From the IMG/VR virus record IMGVR_UViG_3300032249_000432, positions 1-27,469 of that record: DNA of 27,469 nucleotides; one strand, given 5' to 3'. This DNA is from a virus. The stretch's first letter is position 1. Every line of letters starts with the position of its first letter. Made by a program: the position numbers and the translations under genes. The notes beneath the pieces were generated by a model, which made no database searches, was not told where the DNA came from, and saw only the letters and a program-made list of their open reading frames with translations. This document shows, piece after piece, positions 3,081 through 27,469 of this stretch.

Positions 3081-3245
3081 ATGGTAGACGAATACAAAGG
3101 CCAGGGCGGCAGCTATCTGGTCAATCCCAAAACCGGCAAGCGAAAGCTCGTCGAGCGGACCCAGCCGGCCCCTCATCCAACCTCCGAGGTAGCCTCCAAT
3201 GGCATCAGTTCTGACTCGCCGACGCCTGATCCTGGCGAAGATTGA
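3081..3245 (+). CDS. small phage protein overlapping the tail tube gene
   Basis: A 54-residue protein, ATG chosen at 3081 because the upstream in-frame ATG (3015) is buried in the preceding gene. It opens with MVDEYKGQGGSYLVNPKTGK followed by R-K-L-V-E-R-T, a short conserved motif seen in many small uncharacterised phage proteins encoded just before the tail tube gene; the rest is Pro/Ser-rich and probably disordered. The 3' end overlaps the tail tube gene by 47 bases in another frame, which constrains both sequences. Function unknown; a role in tube or terminator assembly is only suggested by place. Confidence 0.62.
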   Translation: MVDEYKGQGGSYLVNPKTGKRKLVERTQPAPHPTSEVASNGISSDSPTPDPGED

Positions 3246-4137
3246 GACCACATACGGCACGGATTCAACTCCGAGCGGCAGCAGCAATGCTGTTCTGGTG
3301 CGCAACCTTGAGATCCAGCCGCTGGTTGCCGATACGGTGAACCGTGACCTGGTGCGGCCTTACATGGGCCAAGCCGATCAACTGCTGGCCCAAACCCGGG
3401 TTGAAGTCAGCTTCGAGGTTGAGTTGGCTGGGTCAGGTACTGCTGGCACCGCTCCGGCTTATGGCCCGGTGCTGCGCAGCTGCGGCCTTAGCGAGACGCT
3501 AGTCACCAGCACCAGCGCCACCTATGCGCCCGAGAGCAGCGGCTTCGAGAGCTGCACCATCCACTACCACGAAGACGGCATCCGCCACAAGCTGACGGGT
3601 TGCCGCGGCACCTTTGAGATTTCCGCTGAAGTCGGCGCGATCCCTTCGATCGCATTCACGATGACCGGCATCTACAACGCCCCCACCGACGAGACGCTGC
3701 CCACCCCGACCTACGCCAACCAAGCAGCCCCGCTGCTGTTCAAGGAAGGTAACACCACCAGCTTCTCGGCATTCTCCTATAGCGGTTGCTTGCAGTCCTA
3801 CAACTTCTCGATGGCAAACGATGTCATCTATCGCGAGCTGGTCGGTTGCTCGAAGGAGATCCTGATCACCAACCGGGCACCCAGTGGCACAGTCGTGATC
3901 GAGGCGCCGACCATTGCGGCGAAGGACTTCTTCGGAATCGCAACTGGCAGCAGCACTGGCAGCATCACCTTTCAGCACGGCACCACTGCCGGCAACAGGT
4001 GCACGGTGACCACTGCGCAGTCTGACCTTGGCAACCTGACCTATAGCGATCAGGACGGCGTGCAGATGCTTAATATGCCTTTCATTGCCGTGCCGACCAG
4101 CTCGGGCAATGATGAGCTGTCCCTTGCTTACACCTAA
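3199..4137 (+). CDS. tail tube (major tail) protein
   Basis: A 312-residue protein that should polymerise as stacked hexamer rings to make the tail tube. The N-terminus (LTRRRLILAKIETTYGTDST) is the common opening of siphophage tube proteins of the gpV-type superfamily, followed by EVSFEVELAGSGTAG, the HEDGIRHKLTGCRGTFEI hairpin and AGxIPSIAFTMTGIY. These strand pairs form the tube beta sandwich in this superfamily. The second half (about residues 180-312) is further beta structure and may be an external decoration domain. Place agrees: after the terminator, before the frameshifted chaperone pair and the tape measure. It starts inside the preceding small gene. Confidence 0.82.
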   Translation: MASVLTRRRLILAKIETTYGTDSTPSGSSNAVLVRNLEIQPLVADTVNRDLVRPYMGQADQLLAQTRVEVSFEVELAGSGTAGTAPAYGPVLRSCGLSETLVTSTSATYAPESSGFESCTIHYHEDGIRHKLTGCRGTFEISAEVGAIPSIAFTMTGIYNAPTDETLPTPTYANQAAPLLFKEGNTTSFSAFSYSGCLQSYNFSMANDVIYRELVGCSKEILITNRAPSGTVVIEAPTIAAKDFFGIATGSSTGSITFQHGTTAGNRCTVTTAQSDLGNLTYSDQDGVQMLNMPFIAVPTSSGNDELSLAYT

Positions 4138-4142
4138 ACCGC

Positions 4143-4487
4143 GTGGCATTTGTCCTCAAGCAATCTGATTCCTACACTTGGCCGGTCACCTTCGACATTC
4201 CTGTCGATGGCGGCCGGCATGAACGGCAGACATTCGACGGTGAGTTCAAGCGGCTGGCTCAGTCGCGCATCACAGAGATTGGCGAGCAGATCAAGGCGGA
4301 GGAGATTACCGACTCCATCCTGGCTGGTGAGGTGCTGATCGGCTGGGCTGGCGTCACGGATGACGCCGGCAAAAATATTCCCTTCAGCCAGTCGGCACTG
4401 CAGCAACTGCTGGATGTGCCGATGCTGGCGGCTGCCATCACGCTGGCCTACTTCGAGAGCCTGCAAGGAGCCAAGCGAAAAAACTGA
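4143..4487 (+). CDS. tail assembly chaperone, short form (lambda gpG-like)
   Basis: A 114-residue protein starting at a GTG six bases after the tail tube stop. It matches gpG-type chaperones in size, in its N-terminal beta hairpin (QSDSYTWPVTFDIPVDGG, then RQTFDGEFKRL) and in the helical second half (FSQSALQQLLDVPMLAAAIT). In lambda, gpG and its frameshifted longer form gpGT coat the tape measure protein and recruit tube subunits. The last codons are CGA AAA AAC TGA, which place the slippery heptamer A AAA AAC exactly before the stop. The -1 frame is open through the next coding stretch, so the gene very probably also makes the longer product listed separately. Confidence 0.82.
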   Translation: MAFVLKQSDSYTWPVTFDIPVDGGRHERQTFDGEFKRLAQSRITEIGEQIKAEEITDSILAGEVLIGWAGVTDDAGKNIPFSQSALQQLLDVPMLAAAITLAYFESLQGAKRKN

Positions 4488-4813
4488 TAGAGGCTGCGGA
4501 ATACTGGGCAGGTGGCGGTGTCGTTGATGATGCTGCTGCAGATGCCGCGGCCATGGGCTTTGAACTGCCAGACCTGCCGCCACCAGTGGCAGCTGAGTTC
4601 GAGATACATCCTGAGAATTGGTCAACCGTGGAGATGTTCCTGCGGTTGCAGACGCAATGGCGATCGACGATGAACGGCGTGATCGGTCTGGACTATTCAG
4701 CAGCTCAATGGTTGTTTAGACTGTATGAGGTGCAGGACCAGTGTGCCCTGCTGGAAGACCTGCAGACCATGGAGGTCGCCGCCATGCAAGCCATCAACAA
4801 GCAAGGAAGCTGA
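4143..4813 (+). CDS. tail assembly chaperone, long form made by -1 frameshift (lambda gpGT-like)
   Basis: Predicted joint product of two frames: 4143-4484 in the first frame, then a -1 shift on A AAA AAC (4478-4484) and reading from 4484 to the stop at 4811-4813. This gives about 223 residues. I read the -1 frame codon by codon from 4484 (CTG ATA GAG GCT GCG GAA) and it has no stop before the downstream ATG at 4553, so the join is clean. The added part (LIEAAEYWAGGGVVDDAAAD and on, then LPDLPPPVAAEFEIHPENW) has the T-domain character that in lambda binds the tail tube protein. Its position just before the tape measure is the universal one. The alternative is separate translation from the ATG at 4553 (86 residues). 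Confidence 0.75.
4478..4484 (+). promoter_or_regulatory. programmed -1 frameshift slippery site A AAA AAC
   Basis: Heptamer of the X XXY YYZ form in the correct phase: frame-0 codons are CGA (4476), AAA (4479), AAC (4482) and then TGA (4485). Both tRNAs can re-pair after a one-base backward slip. It lies at the very end of the short chaperone frame, where siphophages carry this signal. I did not identify a clear downstream stem-loop or upstream Shine-Dalgarno stimulator. Confidence 0.75.
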
Positions 4814-4815
4814 TC

Positions 4816-7098
4816 ATGGCCTTGAACCTCGATGCTGCCCTCAAGATCACGGCCAACGTAGTCGGCGAGAACAACATCCGCCGACTTGGTAACTCGATGC
4901 AGGGGCTCGAGGGCCAGATCAAGAACACCAGCCAAGCGGCCGGGTTACTTGTGATGGGCATCAAGGGATTGGCGGCAGCAGCAGTGACCGGCGGCGTGGT
5001 GACATTGGCAAAGAGCGCGATCGATCTAGCTGATAACATGCGCGACCTGTCGCAGCGAACAGGCGTCAGCATCCAAACGTTGGGCCAGTTCAAGGTTGCA
5101 GCAGAGCTAAGTGGCAGCAGTTTGGAAGGCGTGGCCAAGGGACTCACCTTCCTAAACAAGAATATGGTTGCCGCAGCTACCGGCACTGAAGCGGCGGCCG
5201 CTGCATTTAAGACGATTGGTGTGGCAACGACTGATGCGCAGGGCAATCTGCGATCTGCTGATCAGGTGTTCCTAGACATCGCCGACCGATTCGCCACATT
5301 GCGCGATGGACCAGAGAAGGCAGCACTGGCGATAAAGGTTTTTGGCAAGGCTGGCGCGGAGCTGATTCCAATTCTGAATCTTGGCAGCGAAGAAATCCAG
5401 CGGTTTGGTTTGAACATTGGCCCGGATTTTGCAAACAAAGCGGACGCATTCAATGATCAGCTGGGGTTGATGAGTGCGCAGACGACGATGCTCACCGTCG
5501 AGATCGGATCAAAGCTGCTGCCGATCATGAGTGGGTTGCTGAGCATTGTCAGCGAAAGCATCACCGCAATGGGCAATCTGGCCAAGGAGTTCTATGCCGC
5601 GGTTGGTGGTGCAGCTGGGTTGCAACAGGCAGCAGCTACGTTGATCAAAACCATGGTGGTGCTGGGTGGCGTTACGGCTGGCGTGTTTATTGCCACCAAC
5701 ATCACCACATTTGCAACAGCATTGCGTGGGGTGGTTGGCGTGATGCGGACCCTGTTGTCCCTTGAGCGGGCGATGCTCGCAATCGAAACAGCACGGGTCG
5801 CTGTGGTTGGTTTGATTGCTGGCGTGAAGTCTGGCAAGACACCTGCCACTGCGATCATTGGCGGCGCTATCGGCGGCACCTTAGCGGCTGGCGCGTTGGG
5901 CCTTGGGATCAGCAAGCTGATCGACGGCATCACTCAGAAAATTACTGCTGGGCTTGGAGGCGCCTTCAAAGGCATCTCCATTCCTGAACCAACAGCAGCA
6001 GCTGGCACAATTCCTAATTTATCTGGATTGCAAACTGAGAAAAAAGCCAAGAAAGCTAAAGAGATTACGGAAATTACGGCCGAAGAGCTGCAGCTGAGCA
6101 TGTTGCTGAACAAAGCCAAGATTGACGGGAACACCCTGCTGCAGGCAGAGCTGGAGTACGGCTTGACTCTGCTTGATATTGACAAGCAGAAGATCGGGGC
6201 ACGTCGACGCCAGCAACTTGAAGCTAACGCGGCAACTACATTATTCAAAACACAGATTGATTTTGCGGAGCAGGTTGGCGCCGCGGTTGCTCAGGATTTC
6301 ATGAAGCGTCAAGAGTTGCAAGAGAACTACAACCGCACGGTTGAGGATTTGAAAATCAAGGCCGGCATGATCACCGGCGAAAAACTCAAAGAACTCGAGA
6401 TCGATCGGGAATTAGATGCTATCCGCCAGCGGATGCCAGGCTTGACCGATGCCCAGATCGCCAAACTGCGCGAGCTGATCGCGGCCAGCCAAGATGTAAA
6501 GAAGAGTTTCAAGGAGACCTTTGGCGAAAGCTTGAAGCAGTATTACGAGCAACTTACTAACCTGGGGGCACAAGTTGCTGACTCAGTGAAGGGTGCGTTC
6601 CAAGGACTTGAGGATCAATTGGTTAGTTTTGTGACCACTGGTAAGGCAAGCTTTGCGGATCTAGCCAAAAGCATCATTGCCGACATCGCTCGCATTGCGA
6701 TCCGACAGGCCATCATTGCGCCGCTGTTGAAGGGCGTTGGCGGGATCTTCGGTTTGACCTTTGCCAACGGTGGTGTCTTTGCTCAGAACGGAATCCAGAA
6801 GTTTGCCCGCGGTGGCATCGTTGATAAGCCCACCCTGTTCCCGTTTGCCAAAGGCACGGGCCTGATGGGCGAGGCTGGGCCAGAGGCGATCATGCCTCTT
6901 CGCCGTGGCCGTGATGGCCGACTTGGCGTTGAATCAGCCGGCGGCGGCGGTGGCGTCAATGTCACCGTCAACGTAGACGCGACCGGCACCAGAGCCCAAG
7001 GCGACGAGGGCCGCGCTGGGCAGTTTGCCCGCGCGATCAGCGAAGCGGTCAAGAATGAGATCGTCACCCAGAAGCGCCCCGGAGGACTGCTCGCATAA
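4816..7098 (+). CDS. tape measure protein, lambda gpH-like
   Basis: A 760-residue protein that sets tail length and enters the cell envelope on infection. ATG 4816 is chosen over the in-frame 4741 because AAGGA lies just upstream and the chain from MALNLDAALKITANVVGEN is the normal opening. Residues 41-67, 280-308 and 345-366 are hydrophobic, as expected for membrane-penetrating segments. Residues 67-260 are helical with a TMP-like core (LADNMRDLSQRTGVSIQTLG), and 430-610 are charged helix or coiled coil. The C-terminus has the family signature LMGEAGPEAIMPLRRGRDGR near residue 683. At roughly 1.5 angstrom per residue a tail of about 110 nm is expected. The stop overlaps the next ATG by one base. 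Confidence 0.9.
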   Translation: MALNLDAALKITANVVGENNIRRLGNSMQGLEGQIKNTSQAAGLLVMGIKGLAAAAVTGGVVTLAKSAIDLADNMRDLSQRTGVSIQTLGQFKVAAELSGSSLEGVAKGLTFLNKNMVAAATGTEAAAAAFKTIGVATTDAQGNLRSADQVFLDIADRFATLRDGPEKAALAIKVFGKAGAELIPILNLGSEEIQRFGLNIGPDFANKADAFNDQLGLMSAQTTMLTVEIGSKLLPIMSGLLSIVSESITAMGNLAKEFYAAVGGAAGLQQAAATLIKTMVVLGGVTAGVFIATNITTFATALRGVVGVMRTLLSLERAMLAIETARVAVVGLIAGVKSGKTPATAIIGGAIGGTLAAGALGLGISKLIDGITQKITAGLGGAFKGISIPEPTAAAGTIPNLSGLQTEKKAKKAKEITEITAEELQLSMLLNKAKIDGNTLLQAELEYGLTLLDIDKQKIGARRRQQLEANAATTLFKTQIDFAEQVGAAVAQDFMKRQELQENYNRTVEDLKIKAGMITGEKLKELEIDRELDAIRQRMPGLTDAQIAKLRELIAASQDVKKSFKETFGESLKQYYEQLTNLGAQVADSVKGAFQGLEDQLVSFVTTGKASFADLAKSIIADIARIAIRQAIIAPLLKGVGGIFGLTFANGGVFAQNGIQKFARGGIVDKPTLFPFAKGTGLMGEAGPEAIMPLRRGRDGRLGVESAGGGGGVNVTVNVDATGTRAQGDEGRAGQFARAISEAVKNEIVTQKRPGGLLA

Positions 7099-12915: not shown

Positions 12916-13917
12916 ATGGCCCAACACGATTACGTCATCGCCAACGGCACTGGTGCCGCTGTTCGTTCTGACCTGAACAACGGCCTCGCCGCGATCGTCA
13001 GCCAGAACAGCGGGGCCACTGAACCGGCAGTGATGTATGCGTATCAGTGGTGGGCTGATACGACCACCGGACTGCTCAAGATCCGCAATGCGGCCAACAA
13101 CGCATGGGTGACCATTGGCACGCTAGCCAATGCAAATCTAGGGCTGGCAACGCTGGCTAGTCCGACTTTTACCGGCACGGTCACCATCCCAGCAGGCGCA
13201 AGTATCTCTGGCTTTGCGCCACTGGCCTCGCCAACATTCACCGGCACGGTCACCATCCCGGCAGGCGCGAGCATCTCCGGGTTTGCACCACTGGCTAGCC
13301 CGACCCTGACAGGTACGCCATCAGCCCCTACTGCAGCAGCTGGCACAAATACAACGCAACTGGCAACCACGGCTTTTGTGCTGGCTAACACCGTTCCAGC
13401 TGGAGCTATTGACTATTTTGCAATGTCTACGGCCCCAACCGGCTACCTTAAGGCTAACGGCGCAGCAATAAGTAGGACAACATATGCAACATTGTTTTCG
13501 GCTATTGGAACGACCTATGGCGCAGGCGATGGCAGTACAACTTTCACCTTGCCGGACCTGCGGGGCGAGTTTATTAGGAGCTGGGCTGATGGTAGAGCAG
13601 TAGACACCGGAAGAACATTCGCCAGTTTCCAAGACCAGGCATACCTAAGCCACAATCACGGCGTTAATGATCCTGGGCACAATCACGGCATAAGTGATCC
13701 TGGGCACGCCCACCGTTGGGGTACTGATGACAATGGTGGTGCTGGTGGGGGTGGCAATCCTGATGCCAATGGTGGTACTGATTGGAAAGCATTCACGGAA
13801 GGTGCAGGCACTGGCATTAGCATCAATGGCAGCGGAACTGGCGTAAGCATCCAAAGCAATGGCGGCAGCGAAACCCGCCCGCGCAACATTGCCCTCCTCG
13901 CCTGCATTAAGTTCTGA
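12916..13917 (+). CDS. tail fibre with two 23-residue repeats, collar domain and HxH metal-site repeats
   Basis: A 333-residue fibre. Residues about 80-126 are two near-identical 23-residue repeats (SPTFTGTVTIPAGASISGF core) plus a third diverged unit that leads into TTQLATTAFV, a motif that closes many fibre shafts. A phage tail collar domain follows at about 165-215: PTGYLKANGAAISRTTYATL, then FSAIGTTYGAGDGSTTFTLP and DLRGEFIRSWADG. The tip region has HNHG-x-x-D-P-G twice and then HAHRWG, HxH motifs that bind metal ions along the axis of trimeric fibres such as T4 gp37. The end (ETRPRNIALLACIKF) is the normal collar-family terminus. Expected to be a trimer at the distal tail. Confidence 0.85.
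   Translation: MAQHDYVIANGTGAAVRSDLNNGLAAIVSQNSGATEPAVMYAYQWWADTTTGLLKIRNAANNAWVTIGTLANANLGLATLASPTFTGTVTIPAGASISGFAPLASPTFTGTVTIPAGASISGFAPLASPTLTGTPSAPTAAAGTNTTQLATTAFVLANTVPAGAIDYFAMSTAPTGYLKANGAAISRTTYATLFSAIGTTYGAGDGSTTFTLPDLRGEFIRSWADGRAVDTGRTFASFQDQAYLSHNHGVNDPGHNHGISDPGHAHRWGTDDNGGAGGGGNPDANGGTDWKAFTEGAGTGISINGSGTGVSIQSNGGSETRPRNIALLACIKF
13156..13293 (+). repeat. two tandem 69-bp repeats in the fibre gene
   Basis: Units at 13156-13224 and 13225-13293 encode the same 23 residues; a 20-base core (ACCGGCACGGTCACCATCCC) is identical at 13171 and 13240, and a diverged third unit begins at 13294. The copies differ mainly at third codon positions, so they are not very recent. Repeat number could change by recombination and would change shaft length. 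Confidence 0.85.
13651..13704 (+). repeat. two tandem 27-bp repeats encoding HNHG-type metal motifs
   Basis: Units 13651-13677 and 13678-13704 each encode HNHG-x-x-DPG and differ at only a few positions; a third shorter HAH unit follows at 13705. HxH triads bind iron in trimeric fibre tips of T4 gp37; by analogy this is a metal-stabilised needle. Confidence 0.75.
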
Positions 13918-18383: not shown

Positions 18384-19454
18384 ATGGCCAACGCCACGCC
18401 AATCACGCTTGAGCAGCTCTTCCGCTTCAATCGCGGGCTGCCGCACCAGCTGGCAGCGATCCAGATCCTCGAGCAGGACCTAGCCGTCAATGGCTACGCG
18501 GTCGCTATGCGCCGCGATCGGGCCTGGTTCAACACTTGGAGCCAAGACGGCAAGCAGGTGGACCTGGCTGCCGCTCTGAAGTTGATCAAGCAGTTCGAGG
18601 GTTGCCACCTCGAGGCCTACCCTGACCCGCTCAGTGGTGGCGATCCCTGGACAATCGGCTATGGCACCACCCGCTACCAAGATGGCCGGCGCGTGAGGCA
18701 AGGCGACAAAATCAACGCAATCGAGGCCGATTTGCTGCTCCGCCAGGAGGTGGATCGCATCGCTGAGAAGCTGCGCGCCACCATTCCCTTCTGGGTGGCG
18801 ATGGCCGTTTATCAGCAGTGCGCGCTGATCAGCTTTGCCTACAACCTCGGCAGCAGCTTCTACGGCACCACCGGCTTCGAGACGATCAGCAAGCGGCTAC
18901 GCGAGAAGGACTGGGCCGGCGTGCCCGATGCCCTGCTGCTTTATCGCAACCCGGGCAGCAACGTGGAAGCAGGACTCAAGCGTCGTCGCATTGCCGAGGG
19001 TGACATCTGGGGCCGCGCCAAGCAGGTATCTGCCGCGTTCACCCCTGCGTCGCCTTTCACCTTCAAGATCACGCCACACATCACTTATGGCGAGTTTGCA
19101 CTTGGCCAGGAGGCGCGGCGCTTTGATCACCAGCACCAGTGCGACACGGCCATCAAGCTGGCGCAGTTCCTCGAGAAAGTCCGCACGCAGTTCGGCGGCA
19201 AGCCAATCACGATCACATCGGGCTACAGACCAGCAGCAATCAACCGGCAGGTGGGTGGCGCCAGCCAATCAGAGCACCTGTACAACGCGCCAGGCATCGG
19301 TGCGGTGGACTTCAATATCATTGGCGCCGACATCAATGCGGTGCAAGCCTGGTGTGACAAAGCCTGGCCATACAGCTTGGGCTACGGCGCACCGAAGGGC
19401 TTCGTCCATCTCGGCATCCGCCAGGGCAGTCCTAGGGTTCGGTGGGATTACTGA
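18384..19454 (+). CDS. two-domain endolysin: GH24 lysozyme plus M15 peptidase
   Basis: A 356-residue enzyme that should cut both glycan strands and peptide stems of peptidoglycan. Residues about 60-210 are a T4-type GH24 lysozyme: catalytic E72 (FEGCHLEAYPDP), D81 and T90 (WTIGYGTTRY), followed by ALISFAYNLGSSFYGTTG and GLKRRRIAEGDIW. Residues about 225-356 are a Peptidase_M15_3 domain: ITPHITYGEFALGQEA, ITITSGYRPAAINRQVGGAS, then the zinc ligands H298 (SEHLYN), D309 (GAVDFN) and H342 (GFVHLGI). The first 55 residues (TLEQLFRFNRGLPHQLAAIQ) may be a binding or helper domain. Fusion of the two enzyme types in one lysin is uncommon. No signal peptide, so it depends on a holin. Confidence 0.9.
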   Translation: MANATPITLEQLFRFNRGLPHQLAAIQILEQDLAVNGYAVAMRRDRAWFNTWSQDGKQVDLAAALKLIKQFEGCHLEAYPDPLSGGDPWTIGYGTTRYQDGRRVRQGDKINAIEADLLLRQEVDRIAEKLRATIPFWVAMAVYQQCALISFAYNLGSSFYGTTGFETISKRLREKDWAGVPDALLLYRNPGSNVEAGLKRRRIAEGDIWGRAKQVSAAFTPASPFTFKITPHITYGEFALGQEARRFDHQHQCDTAIKLAQFLEKVRTQFGGKPITITSGYRPAAINRQVGGASQSEHLYNAPGIGAVDFNIIGADINAVQAWCDKAWPYSLGYGAPKGFVHLGIRQGSPRVRWDY

Positions 19455-19460
19455 GCCTGC

Positions 19461-19976
19461 ATGATCATTCCAGACCACGAGATCGCCCGTTTTTGCCAGC
19501 AGGCGGGGATGGTGCTGCCATACAACCCTGACCTGCAAAACCCCGCCAGCCTTGATGTGTTGCTTGGCGATCGTTTGATGATCGAGGTTGAGGAGCGCCC
19601 CGAGTTGCAGATCCTGGGCATCAGCCACCACACGCAGGCGGCCCCGTACTGGCTCGCGCCGGGTGAGTTCTGCCTAGCCGAGACCCAGGAAATCTTCAAC
19701 CTGCCCGACCACATCGCGGCGCAGTTCGTACTCAAGTCCAGCCGTGCCCGCGAAGGATTGGAGCATCTACTCGCTGGCTATTGCGATCCGGGCTGGCATG
19801 GCAGCCGGTTGACGCTAGAGCTTCAGAACGCGCGCCGGTTCCACAACATCGCGCTGTGGCCTGGCATGAAGATCGGCCAGATGGTGTTTCACCTGATCAG
19901 CGGCACACCGGAACGCACCTACCGCGAAACTGGAAGGTATAACGGGGACCTAGGTGTGACTGCCAGCCGAGGCTAA
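19461..19976 (+). CDS. dCTP deaminase-like enzyme
   Basis: A 171-residue protein of the dCTP deaminase/dUTPase trimer family, which turns dCTP into dUTP on the way to dTTP. Motifs run in order: MIIPDHEIARFCQ at the start, NPASLDVLLGDRLMI, FVLKSSRAREGL (substrate arginines near 95-97), CDPGWHGSRLTLELQN with the catalytic Glu near 120, MKIGQMVFHLIS and the terminal ETGRYNGDLGV that closes the active site. Key residues look present. It is short but within family range. The gene sits at the end of the late operon rather than with replication genes, seven bases after the endolysin. Its 3' end overlaps a convergent small gene. Confidence 0.86.
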   Translation: MIIPDHEIARFCQQAGMVLPYNPDLQNPASLDVLLGDRLMIEVEERPELQILGISHHTQAAPYWLAPGEFCLAETQEIFNLPDHIAAQFVLKSSRAREGLEHLLAGYCDPGWHGSRLTLELQNARRFHNIALWPGMKIGQMVFHLISGTPERTYRETGRYNGDLGVTASRG

Positions 19977-24940: not shown

Positions 24941-25583
24941 CGGCAATCACCTCCACAGGTTGTGCAATCGTTGCATTGAGCTGTTCCAGGTCGGTCTTCG
25001 GCAATTCAGACTTGACCGTCACCGGCTCGATGTCAACCACCTCCTCCTGAGTCTGAATGCCCACCAGCAGCTCTGGGATGTAGAGACGGCCCCAGAAGGC
25101 CGCAGCCCTATACCTGATCATCAAATCCGGGAGGGTTAGCCACTTGCTGCCCGACTTCGTGGCCCATCCTTCCTTTTTGGCCATCGCCATGGTGACGGTC
25201 GGGCCGCGGAGATCCTCGCCGGTTTTCAACTCAGTTGCGACGCAGGTGCAGGCCAACGTGTCACCCTGACCCGTCACCTCATATCGCAGCGGACTGAACC
25301 GACCGCAGCCATTGATCAAGCCAATGATGAATTGACTGCTCCAGCTGGGGCGGCCATGAATGATATGCAGATTCTGCATCACCTGAAACGGGCTCATCCG
25401 CATTCGATTAGCAATCTCCAAGGCGACCAAGCAGTTGGCGAATCCCTGCTGCCCTTGGAACTGCGGAGGGATCAACGTGCTGCTGGCCAGGGCCTTAGCG
25501 ATCCGTTGGGCATCCTCAAAAGCTTGGATGCCGGAGAACACCGAGCCGGTGCTGGTGGTGGTGAGTGCTGTGGAGTCAGTCAT
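24927..25583 (-). CDS. RecT-like single-strand annealing protein
   Basis: A 218-residue protein between an exonuclease and an SSB-like gene, the normal RecE-RecT order. The sequence IAKALASSTLIPPQFQG near 30, ANCLVALEIANRMRMSPFQV near 50, MQNLHIIHGRPSWSSQFIIG near 70, CGRFSPLRY and MIRYRAAAFWGRLYIPELL near 155 are the repeated marks of a phage family I know as RecT-type recombination proteins. It would anneal DNA strands cut by the exonuclease. The C-terminus is an acidic linker ending EVIADELF, similar to the SSB tip in the next-but-one gene. The stop of the exonuclease overlaps the start by one base. The family call rests largely on context. Confidence 0.72.
   Translation of the reverse strand: MTDSTALTTTSTGSVFSGIQAFEDAQRIAKALASSTLIPPQFQGQQGFANCLVALEIANRMRMSPFQVMQNLHIIHGRPSWSSQFIIGLINGCGRFSPLRYEVTGQGDTLACTCVATELKTGEDLRGPTVTMAMAKKEGWATKSGSKWLTLPDLMIRYRAAAFWGRLYIPELLVGIQTQEEVVDIEPVTVKSELPKTDLEQLNATIAQPVEVIADELF
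24946..24954 (-). promoter_or_regulatory. strong Shine-Dalgarno GGAGGTGAT inside the recT-like gene
   Basis: Nine bases fully complementary to the canonical 16S rRNA 3' end, six bases before the HTH start at 24940 when counted from the T. It lies in the codons for Glu-Val-Ile near the RecT-like C-terminus. Few other genes here have a comparable site, so it settles the start choice for the HTH gene. Confidence 0.7.
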
Positions 25584-26422
25584 CAGTAGGTCTCAATCTC
25601 AGGTAGTTGTTCCATGGATCCGTCTGGCCGCGGCATCATCCAGCCGGGCAAGCTAATCGGTTCGATCTGATCGCTGTAACCGGGCCACGCGCCAGCCTGT
25701 TTGCAGGTGGCGAGCACATCCAGATCGCGCGCCGCCGTCTCGGCGCCAATCGTCACAATGACTGGCGCAGCAGCATAGACAGCAACTGCATAGGGTGGCT
25801 TTTTCTCCACACACACAAACAGAAACTGCTCAGGTCGGCAGCCAGTGGCAGCCTGCACCCCGTCCAGATACCAGCTGCTCTGCACGTGATACCTGAATGC
25901 CCCGATCGATTTGCGGAACCCTGCAGGGCTGGCGTCTTCGGTGCTTTTCAAGTCAACAATCAACCGGCCGTCATTGGTCAGCCAGTCCGGTCGGCACTTG
26001 CAGGCCAGTCCCGTTCTCGGATCTGTCCACATGTGGGTGGTCTCGGCTTTGCCCTCCCAGTGCAGCAATGCCGCAGCAGCGGGATGCGCCCACACAGCCT
26101 CGGCCATCCGGCTGATCTGTGCGCGATCATCGGCGGCGATCAGTTCACGGTCGCCAGCCTCAGCCTCAAACTCGGCCCAGGCTTCCTTGCCGGCCTTGGT
26201 ACGGCGATCAACCTGCGGCGCTGTGATGTAGCGCTCCTCAAACTGATCCTGCTCCAGCACCAGCGTATGCAGCGCGGTTCCGATGCGCATGGCTGGCGTT
26301 GGCTCAGGCACCTCGCGCTTCGGATCGATATAGCGTGCCCAGTAATGCAGCGGACTACGGGCCACCAGATCGAGGTGGCTTTTGCTCACCGCTGGGTGAG
26401 CGTGATATGCGGCGTTGTCCAT
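25583..26422 (-). CDS. RecE-type exonuclease (PD-(D/E)XK, exonuclease VIII C-terminal family)
   Basis: A 279-residue nuclease that should resect double-stranded DNA ends for the annealing protein encoded next. Key marks: HPAVSKSHLDLVARSPLHYW (family opening), MRIGTALHTLVLEQDQF near 46, the active-site series E127 (GKAE), D146 (KCRPDWL) and D157-L-K159 (LIVDLKST), then YHVQSSWYLDGVQ near 178 with the conserved Q and Y of the motif. The length is normal for phage RecE C-terminal nucleases, which lack the large E. coli N-terminal part. First gene of a four-gene minus operon; divergent to the helicase. Confidence 0.88.
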   Translation of the reverse strand: MDNAAYHAHPAVSKSHLDLVARSPLHYWARYIDPKREVPEPTPAMRIGTALHTLVLEQDQFEERYITAPQVDRRTKAGKEAWAEFEAEAGDRELIAADDRAQISRMAEAVWAHPAAAALLHWEGKAETTHMWTDPRTGLACKCRPDWLTNDGRLIVDLKSTEDASPAGFRKSIGAFRYHVQSSWYLDGVQAATGCRPEQFLFVCVEKKPPYAVAVYAAAPVIVTIGAETAARDLDVLATCKQAGAWPGYSDQIEPISLPGWMMPRPDGSMEQLPEIETY

Positions 26423-26475: not shown

Positions 26476-27469
26476 TTGAACCTTCGGCCCTATCAACAGC
26501 AGGCCATCAATGATCTGCGGGCTGCATTCCGCAATGGCGCCAAAGCTCCTCTGCTGGTGGCACCAACCGGCGCTGGCAAGACCGTGATCTTCTCAGCAAT
26601 CGCCGCAGCAACCGCAGCCAAAGGCCGCAACGGTCTGGTGTTGGTCCATCGCCGTGAACTGGTTATCCAAGCCAGCCGCAAGCTCACCGATGCAGGCGTG
26701 ACCCATGGCATCATCGCCGCCGGGATGGATGGTGCAAACGCATCAATTCAGGTCGCATCGGTGCAAACGCTCATCCGGCGGCTGCACACAGTCACCGAGC
26801 CGCCCGACCTGATCATCATCGATGAGGCCCACCATGCAGCAGCTGGCAGCTGGCAGGCCATCATCAATCACTGGCCTGATGTCCCACTGATCGGCGTGAC
26901 TGCCACGCCATGCAGGCTTGACGGCAAAGGTCTCGGCAACGTGTTCGACACATTGATCGAGGGTCCATCGGTGCAGATGCTCACCTCAGCCGGCTACCTG
27001 TCACCTGCCCGCATCTATGCACCACCCATGGTTGCCGATCTGTCAGGCATCAAACGACGCGCCGGCGATTACGCCATCGATCAAGCCGCGGACGCGATGA
27101 CCCGACCAACGGTGACTGGTGATGCGATCAAGCACTACCGAACACTGGCTGGCGATCAACAGGCGATCACGTTCTGCTGCAACGTCAACCATGCCGTCTC
27201 GGTGCGGGACTCATTTGCAACAGCTGGTATCAGCTCTGAACTGTTGCTGGGCAATACTTCAGACCGCGATGCCGTAGTCGGCCGATTCGCCACTGGTGAG
27301 ACCCGCATCCTCGTGACCGTTGATGTGGTCAGCGAGGGCTTCGACATCCCAGCAGCCGGTTGCGCCATCCTGCTGAGGCCCACTCAGTCCTTGGGGCTAT
27401 ACCTGCAGCAAGTTGGGCGGGTACTGCGACCAGCGGCAGGTAAGAAGCACGCCATCATCCTCGACCACG
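26476..27469 (+). CDS. SF2 DEAH helicase (3' partial)
   Basis: A helicase of superfamily 2, type III restriction/UvrB-like subgroup, running off the right edge after 331 codons. A stop at 26449 limits the start; no ATG fits and TTG 26476 gives the natural opening MNLRPYQQQAINDLRAAFRN. Motif I (Walker A) is APTGAGKT at 29-36, motif II IIDEAHH at 114-120, motif III GVTATP at 140-145, and motif VI QQVGRVLRP near 310. Motif V-like VTVDVVSEGFDIP precedes it. Motifs are intact. Phage forms usually act in replication or recombination. It diverges from the exonuclease gene, so both would be early genes. Confidence 0.86.
   Translation, partial: MNLRPYQQQAINDLRAAFRNGAKAPLLVAPTGAGKTVIFSAIAAATAAKGRNGLVLVHRRELVIQASRKLTDAGVTHGIIAAGMDGANASIQVASVQTLIRRLHTVTEPPDLIIIDEAHHAAAGSWQAIINHWPDVPLIGVTATPCRLDGKGLGNVFDTLIEGPSVQMLTSAGYLSPARIYAPPMVADLSGIKRRAGDYAIDQAADAMTRPTVTGDAIKHYRTLAGDQQAITFCCNVNHAVSVRDSFATAGISSELLLGNTSDRDAVVGRFATGETRILVTVDVVSEGFDIPAAGCAILLRPTQSLGLYLQQVGRVLRPAAGKKHAIILDH

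Follow-up and report, generated by a model that had tools for sequence, protein, structure and literature searches.

A predicted programmed -1 ribosomal frameshift in the G/GT-type tail assembly chaperone gene of a likely cyanobacterial virus

The -1 frameshift of the lambda tail assembly chaperone genes G and GT has long been established, with a ratio of 30:1 (PMC5009743). The available text of further papers predicts slip sites for the chaperone pair in several other phages: AAAAAAC in phiCbK and GGGAAAC in Colossus (PMC3556154), GGGAAAC directly before TGA in KL1 (PMC3483164) and AAAAAAC directly before the stop in Loki (PMC5313236). In the haloarchaeal viruses HCTV-1 and HCTV-2, G_GGA_AAC and A_AAA_AAC, respectively, are described in g-t expression (PMC5009743). 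The record of RcapMu (JN190960) carries the labels 'potential -1 frameshift' and 'DUF1799-containing protein'. For Dragolir, A AAA AAC or G GGA AAC was perhaps also predicted at the chaperone gene. In E. coli dnaX, an upstream Shine-Dalgarno (SD) element and a downstream hairpin stimulate frameshifting, and the stop does not directly follow the heptamer. The dnaX shift site is A_AAA_AAG (PMC5009743).

Here we analysed a window of 27,469 bases, which is a whole IMG/VR virus record and for which an earlier note had claimed a gpG/gpGT-type pair joined at A AAA AAC. We predict that ribosomes make a programmed -1 shift within a tail assembly chaperone gene of the lambda G/GT type, and put the probability of this reading at roughly 95%. 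Tail chaperone frameshifting is known or predicted in many phages, and by its sequence the window is very likely a well-supported, ordinary case. The features are:

3199-4137, + strand, tail tube (major tail) protein gene (PF18906 Phage_tube_2, E 5e-23), directly 5' of the G-like ORF
4143-4487, + strand, gpG-like short tail assembly chaperone, 114 aa, GTG start (weak PF08748 Phage_TAC_4 match; phrog_8233)
4467-4470, + strand, GGAG, SD-like element 7 nt 5' of the heptamer (anti-SD pairing, GGA codon conservation)
4478-4484, + strand, slippery heptamer A AAA AAC, in phase X XXY YYZ in ORF 4143-4487
4485-4487, + strand, TGA stop of the 0 frame, the codon right after the heptamer
4484-4813, + strand, T-like -1 frame extension, 109 aa, decoded after the shift (PF08809 DUF1799, E 9e-17)
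4143-4813, + strand, predicted gpGT-like fusion, 223 aa, with the -1 shift at 4484
4493-4516, + strand, candidate downstream hairpin (4493-4497 with 4512-4516) after an 8-nt spacer (RNAalifold)
4816-7098, + strand, tape measure protein gene (PF09718 Tape_meas_lam_C, E 3e-24)

As described for lambda, a short chaperone with a -1 extension and an in-phase heptamer adjoins the tape measure gene (PMC5009743). The lambda heptamer is G GGA AAG, as the earlier note had it, whereas the window has A AAA AAC, and both the stop right after the heptamer and the DUF1799-type T part are features of the window. Likened through their published descriptions, phiCbK, Colossus, KL1 and Loki have the same heptamers in the same kind of gene pair, and KL1 and Loki also share the abutting stop; their hosts (Caulobacter, Burkholderia, Acinetobacter) are unlike that of the window. 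HCTV-1 and HCTV-2, again compared by description, use the two heptamers found in the window's family but infect archaea. RcapMu has a homologous G (tblastn E 1e-3) with GGGAAAC before TGA, differing in its G GGA AAC version and its Rhodobacter host, and dnaX shares an A-rich heptamer but has A AAA AAG and is another gene. We found no description of the family regularity reported below (AAC as second codon, adjacent stop, A/G exchange) in the available text of the open-licence literature searched. The accessible part of the S-LBS1 paper (PMC6157547) contained no mention of a frameshift, tape measure or chaperone, DUF1799 was met in one paper, whose available text lists it apart from the chaperone, and a search on the Pfam names returned, among the matches listed, unrelated TAC4 papers alone.

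The codons at the site are CGA AAA AAC TGA. The heptamer claimed for 4478-4484 is there, on the + strand and in the frame of ORF 4143-4487, and the short-frame stop follows it immediately, as had been said. The -1 frame, claimed to be open into the downstream coding stretch, indeed runs open from 4364 to a TGA at 4811-4813, just short of the tape measure gene, and overlaps the 0 frame by 124 nt; the heptamer is the sole in-phase X XXY YYZ within this overlap. The +1 frame is shut at 4525, 13 codons past the 0-frame stop.

The genes are ordered tail tube, G-like ORF, T-like ORF and tape measure, so that the pair lies between the tail tube and tape measure genes, with lambda-like minor tail genes 3' of the latter. 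The tape measure ORF is listed from 4741 and has an in-frame ATG at 4816. This gene order, together with the family-wide heptamer and the conserved -1 relation, supports the claim of a gpG/gpGT-type pair. The host is likely a cyanobacterium, because the major capsid protein is nearest to those of the Synechococcus siphoviruses S-CBS3, S-LBS1 and S-CBS1 (52-57% identity) and the nearest named relative of the G-like protein (ORF1, 4143-4487) is S-CBS1 (49.6%). The record is probably an incomplete genome, since a ResIII/DEAD helicase gene (26476-27468, + strand) is cut by its end. Elsewhere, the window contains a tail collar gene (12916-13917) whose translation has tandem repeats, nearly identical and each about 23 residues long (ASPTFTGTVTIPAGASISGFAPL), an endolysin-like ORF (18384-19454) that combines a Phage_lysozyme (PF00959) with a Peptidase_M15_3 (PF08291) enzyme domain, a dCTP deaminase-like gene (19461-19976; PF22769, E 1e-28) and an Exonuclease VIII-like PD-(D/E)XK gene (25583-26422, - strand); no tRNA genes were found in its 27,469 bases.

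Taken by itself, ORF1 matches PF08748 Phage_TAC_4 at E 0.0088 with 16.7 bits, under the 21.1 cut-off, and the PHROG tail assembly chaperone phrog_8233 at E 5e-5. Its assignment to a chaperone sequence family comes through its relatives: in alignment A5, 54 of 63 sequences match Phage_TAC_4 at E <= 0.01 (best 6e-37). The T part matches PF08809 DUF1799 with 61.5 bits against a cut-off of 26 (E 9e-17), as do all 50 members of alignment A6. By these profile matches the gene pair is Phage_TAC_4 plus DUF1799. The AlphaFold models of the two halves are confident, with pLDDT 89.0 (G) and 89.8 (T). In VIA-align, the G model was weakly similar to YqbN (3klu, Z 3.9, rmsd 6.7 over 96) and to the HK97 chaperone (2ob9, Z 2.8, rmsd 4.6 over 73), no Z value reaching 5, and Foldseek returned nothing at E <= 0.001 with either model. 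A sequence search of the PDB found nothing with the G profile and, with T, three ribosomal-protein rows near E 0.8.

The heptamer as such is not rare: AAAAAAC occurs three times in the window against 1.51 expected, and 17 of 100 shuffles reach three. With the protein fixed and codons resampled synonymously, an in-phase heptamer abutted the stop in 3.9% of draws, and 21% of draws had one anywhere within the last 41 codons. Because of these frequencies the window's sequence alone is suggestive but not decisive, chance being possible. We judge the heptamer real because it is conserved in 80 of 80 close relatives and in 212 of 216 independently chosen loci, conservation in relatives being a check that the earlier note had named. 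The close relatives derive from a search of viral contigs with ORF1, which gave 234 relatives, the best 80 of which (62-97% identity) were kept. Each of these best 80 has AAAAAAC right before the stop, and all 81 rows, window included, read exactly AAAAAAC in phase.

The independently chosen loci come from a survey that took no account of the slip site, in which viral and genome contigs were scanned for the T-domain motif about 50 codons downstream. It yielded at least 239 loci, 216 of them with a recognisable upstream G-type ORF, chosen by the G profile. The T frame is the -1 frame in all 216 of these listed loci, and 212 carry AAAAAAC or GGGAAAC. The heptamer abuts the stop in 194 (AAAAAAC in 110, GGGAAAC in 84), and of the other 22 listed loci, 18 keep one of the two 10-49 nt before the stop. 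The four listed loci with neither AAC heptamer have AAAAAAG, GGGAAAT, AAAAAAA and, in one (L254), a non-canonical sequence. L254, whose G frame ends AAG GGG AAA ATC TAG, is the only one of the 216 listed loci without a canonical heptamer. Excluded from the 216 were 23 of the 239 listed loci, which had no G ORF by the profile. In thirteen of these, fewer than 300 nt precede the motif and there was nothing to score, and ten have candidate sites, with AAAAAAC or GGGAAAC in eight, at -7, -10 or -46; L280 has GGGAAAA. In L260, GGGAAAG, which the earlier note gives as lambda's heptamer, stands 25 nt before the stop and replaces the AAC heptamers. The survey counts are of loci and not of independent lineages, since some loci (e.g. 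L107 and L047) share contigs with the close-clade set.

The heptamer switched between its A and G versions at least 15 times on a quickly built tree of 153 sequences, from which the trait columns had been removed beforehand; gene mosaicism might inflate this count. Collapsing branches with support below 80, 90 and 95 left at least 12, 10 and 6 switches, and label shuffling with the 80-support collapse gave a mean of 40.8. Throughout, X1 is identical to X2X3 in 194 of the 194 stop-abutting heptamers. Triple exchanges that preserve X XXY YYZ are a prediction of tandem slippage, and the conservation pattern therefore speaks for tandem tRNA slippage rather than for stop-driven or transcriptional slippage or for separate initiation.

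Slippage driven by the stop, with the peptidyl-tRNA slipping alone on A AAC TGA while the A site is occupied by the stop codon, would yield an identical product and would fit the stop being the next codon in 194 of the 216 listed loci. Such slippage would have no need for X1 to equal X2X3, yet the match is complete, and the 18 listed loci that keep AAAAAAC or GGGAAAC at a distance from their stop likewise speak against it; we consider it very unlikely.

The T-like frame could also be a gene of its own, translated from the ATG at 4553 into a T-only protein of 86 aa, the heptamer being incidental, and the records of S-CBS1, S-LBS1 and S-CBS3 annotate the second ORF with its own start. Translation from that ATG only had been named in the earlier note as an outcome that would refute the frameshift, but the ATG is present in only 24 of 62 distinct relatives. 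Moreover, the -1 frame protein from the slip site to the first ATG is conserved while varying at synonymous sites: in the close clade its first residue is L and its second I, T or M, residues 4-9 are conserved with variable third positions, and all 50 members of alignment A6 have Leu as their first residue. Codons 113-114 are invariant among the 63 distinct close-clade sequences, and the heptamer is conserved far above chance. By this pattern of substitutions the -1 frame is under selection and predicted to be translated 5' of any start codon, which makes a separate gene extremely improbable. The same arrangement is found in named relatives, among them S-CBS1, S-LBS1, S-CBS3, RcapMu and HK639 (11 of 11 loci scored). 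Transcriptional slippage on the run of six A, adding or dropping bases and so joining the frames, is known for longer runs and is almost certainly not the cause here, as 84 of the 194 listed stop-abutting sites are GGGAAAC, at the same position in the same family and without a long homopolymer, and all 81 close-clade rows are exactly AAAAAAC in phase. On the grounds of conservation, all three were rejected as the main mechanism.

The predicted tandem slippage probably has two stimulators, which the earlier note had not included, nor had it mentioned the GGGAAAC alternative or the prior publication of the heptamers in other phages. Upstream, anti-SD pairing over the 20 nt 5' of the heptamer averages -6.84 kcal/mol in the 63 distinct relatives versus -4.0 kcal/mol in synonymous sequences (0 of 60 rounds as low). 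A GGA codon is present in 61 of the 63 relatives, GGA making up 9.8% of Gly codons in the counted window genes. The close clade thereby shows selection on an upstream SD-like element of the dnaX type, and GGAG is a probable frameshift stimulator. The effect was smaller in the survey AAAAAAC group, which includes window relatives (0 of 60 rounds), and no anti-SD signal was found in the survey GGGAAAC group (34 of 60 synonymous rounds as strong).

Downstream, RNAalifold on 38 sequences gave -6.8 kcal/mol versus a synonymous-shuffle mean of -0.24 kcal/mol (0 of 40 as low), with a close-clade stem of 5-6 pairs that starts after an 8-nt spacer. Covariation of the stem is modest (92.5% of cells paired, two pairs changed on both sides); in the controls, 137 of 500 letter shuffles pair equally well and a +3 slide still gives 86%. 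Segments of 36 nt starting 5-8 nt past the heptamer have more stable folds than their synonymous shuffles (0 of 30 rounds per group) in the survey AAAAAAC group (109), the survey GGGAAAC group (83) and the 31 scorable of 38 close relatives, and segments 60 nt further on showed no such excess in the two survey groups. The window's own stem is weak, with two G-U pairs, and the window alone prefers other pairings; dinucleotide-shuffle z values for its fold are weak at -0.8 (4489-4528) and -1.9 (4485-4544). Rfam gave no match up to E 1 on 4300-4900. Judged on these folds, the hairpin is a probable stimulator.

Under the predicted mechanism, most ribosomes would read CGA AAA AAC, meet the adjacent TGA and release the 114-aa gpG-like chaperone. 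In a minority, both tRNAs would slip back one base, from AAA AAC to AAA AAA, and these ribosomes would continue with CTG ATA GAG to make the 223-aa gpGT-like fusion. The sequences show the layout, the frame, a heptamer that is conserved and covaries, and selection on the -1 frame; we infer that the fusion is produced, at some G:GT ratio, and that it has a role as in lambda: many G copies would coat the tape measure, and the T part (DUF1799) of the rare fusion would bring the tail tube protein to it. Counted against a frameshift are the score of ORF1 below the Pfam cut-off for Phage_TAC_4, the weak hairpin in the window, the 4 of 216 listed loci without an AAC heptamer, the lack of a confident match to a solved structure, and the statement that in E. 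coli A_AAA_AAC shifts far less readily than A_AAA_AAG (PMC5009743).

The finding corrects the annotation of three cyanophage relatives, S-CBS1, S-LBS1 and S-CBS3, whose records give two separate ORFs with neither an annotated frameshift nor a joined gene. The S-LBS1 record calls the G-like homologue (L083:1501-1881) 'ATPase component of the ABC-type cobalamin/Fe3+-siderophores transport system', likely a misannotation. DUF1799, 'hypothetical' in Pfam, is likely the T half of gpGT, and the window T part was matched in 1,079 phage records (tblastn). For the family, the repeated exchange of A AAA and G GGA, in which X1 always matches, amounts to a clean natural experiment on tandem slippage with an AAC second codon. 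It is unlikely, though conceivable, that the shift in the Phage_TAC_4/DUF1799 family is coupled to termination; if it were, the near-invariant AAC, poorly shifty in E. coli, and the adjacent stop would tie the G:GT ratio to release-factor supply and the state of the Asn-tRNA, and tail assembly might sense the translation state of the host.
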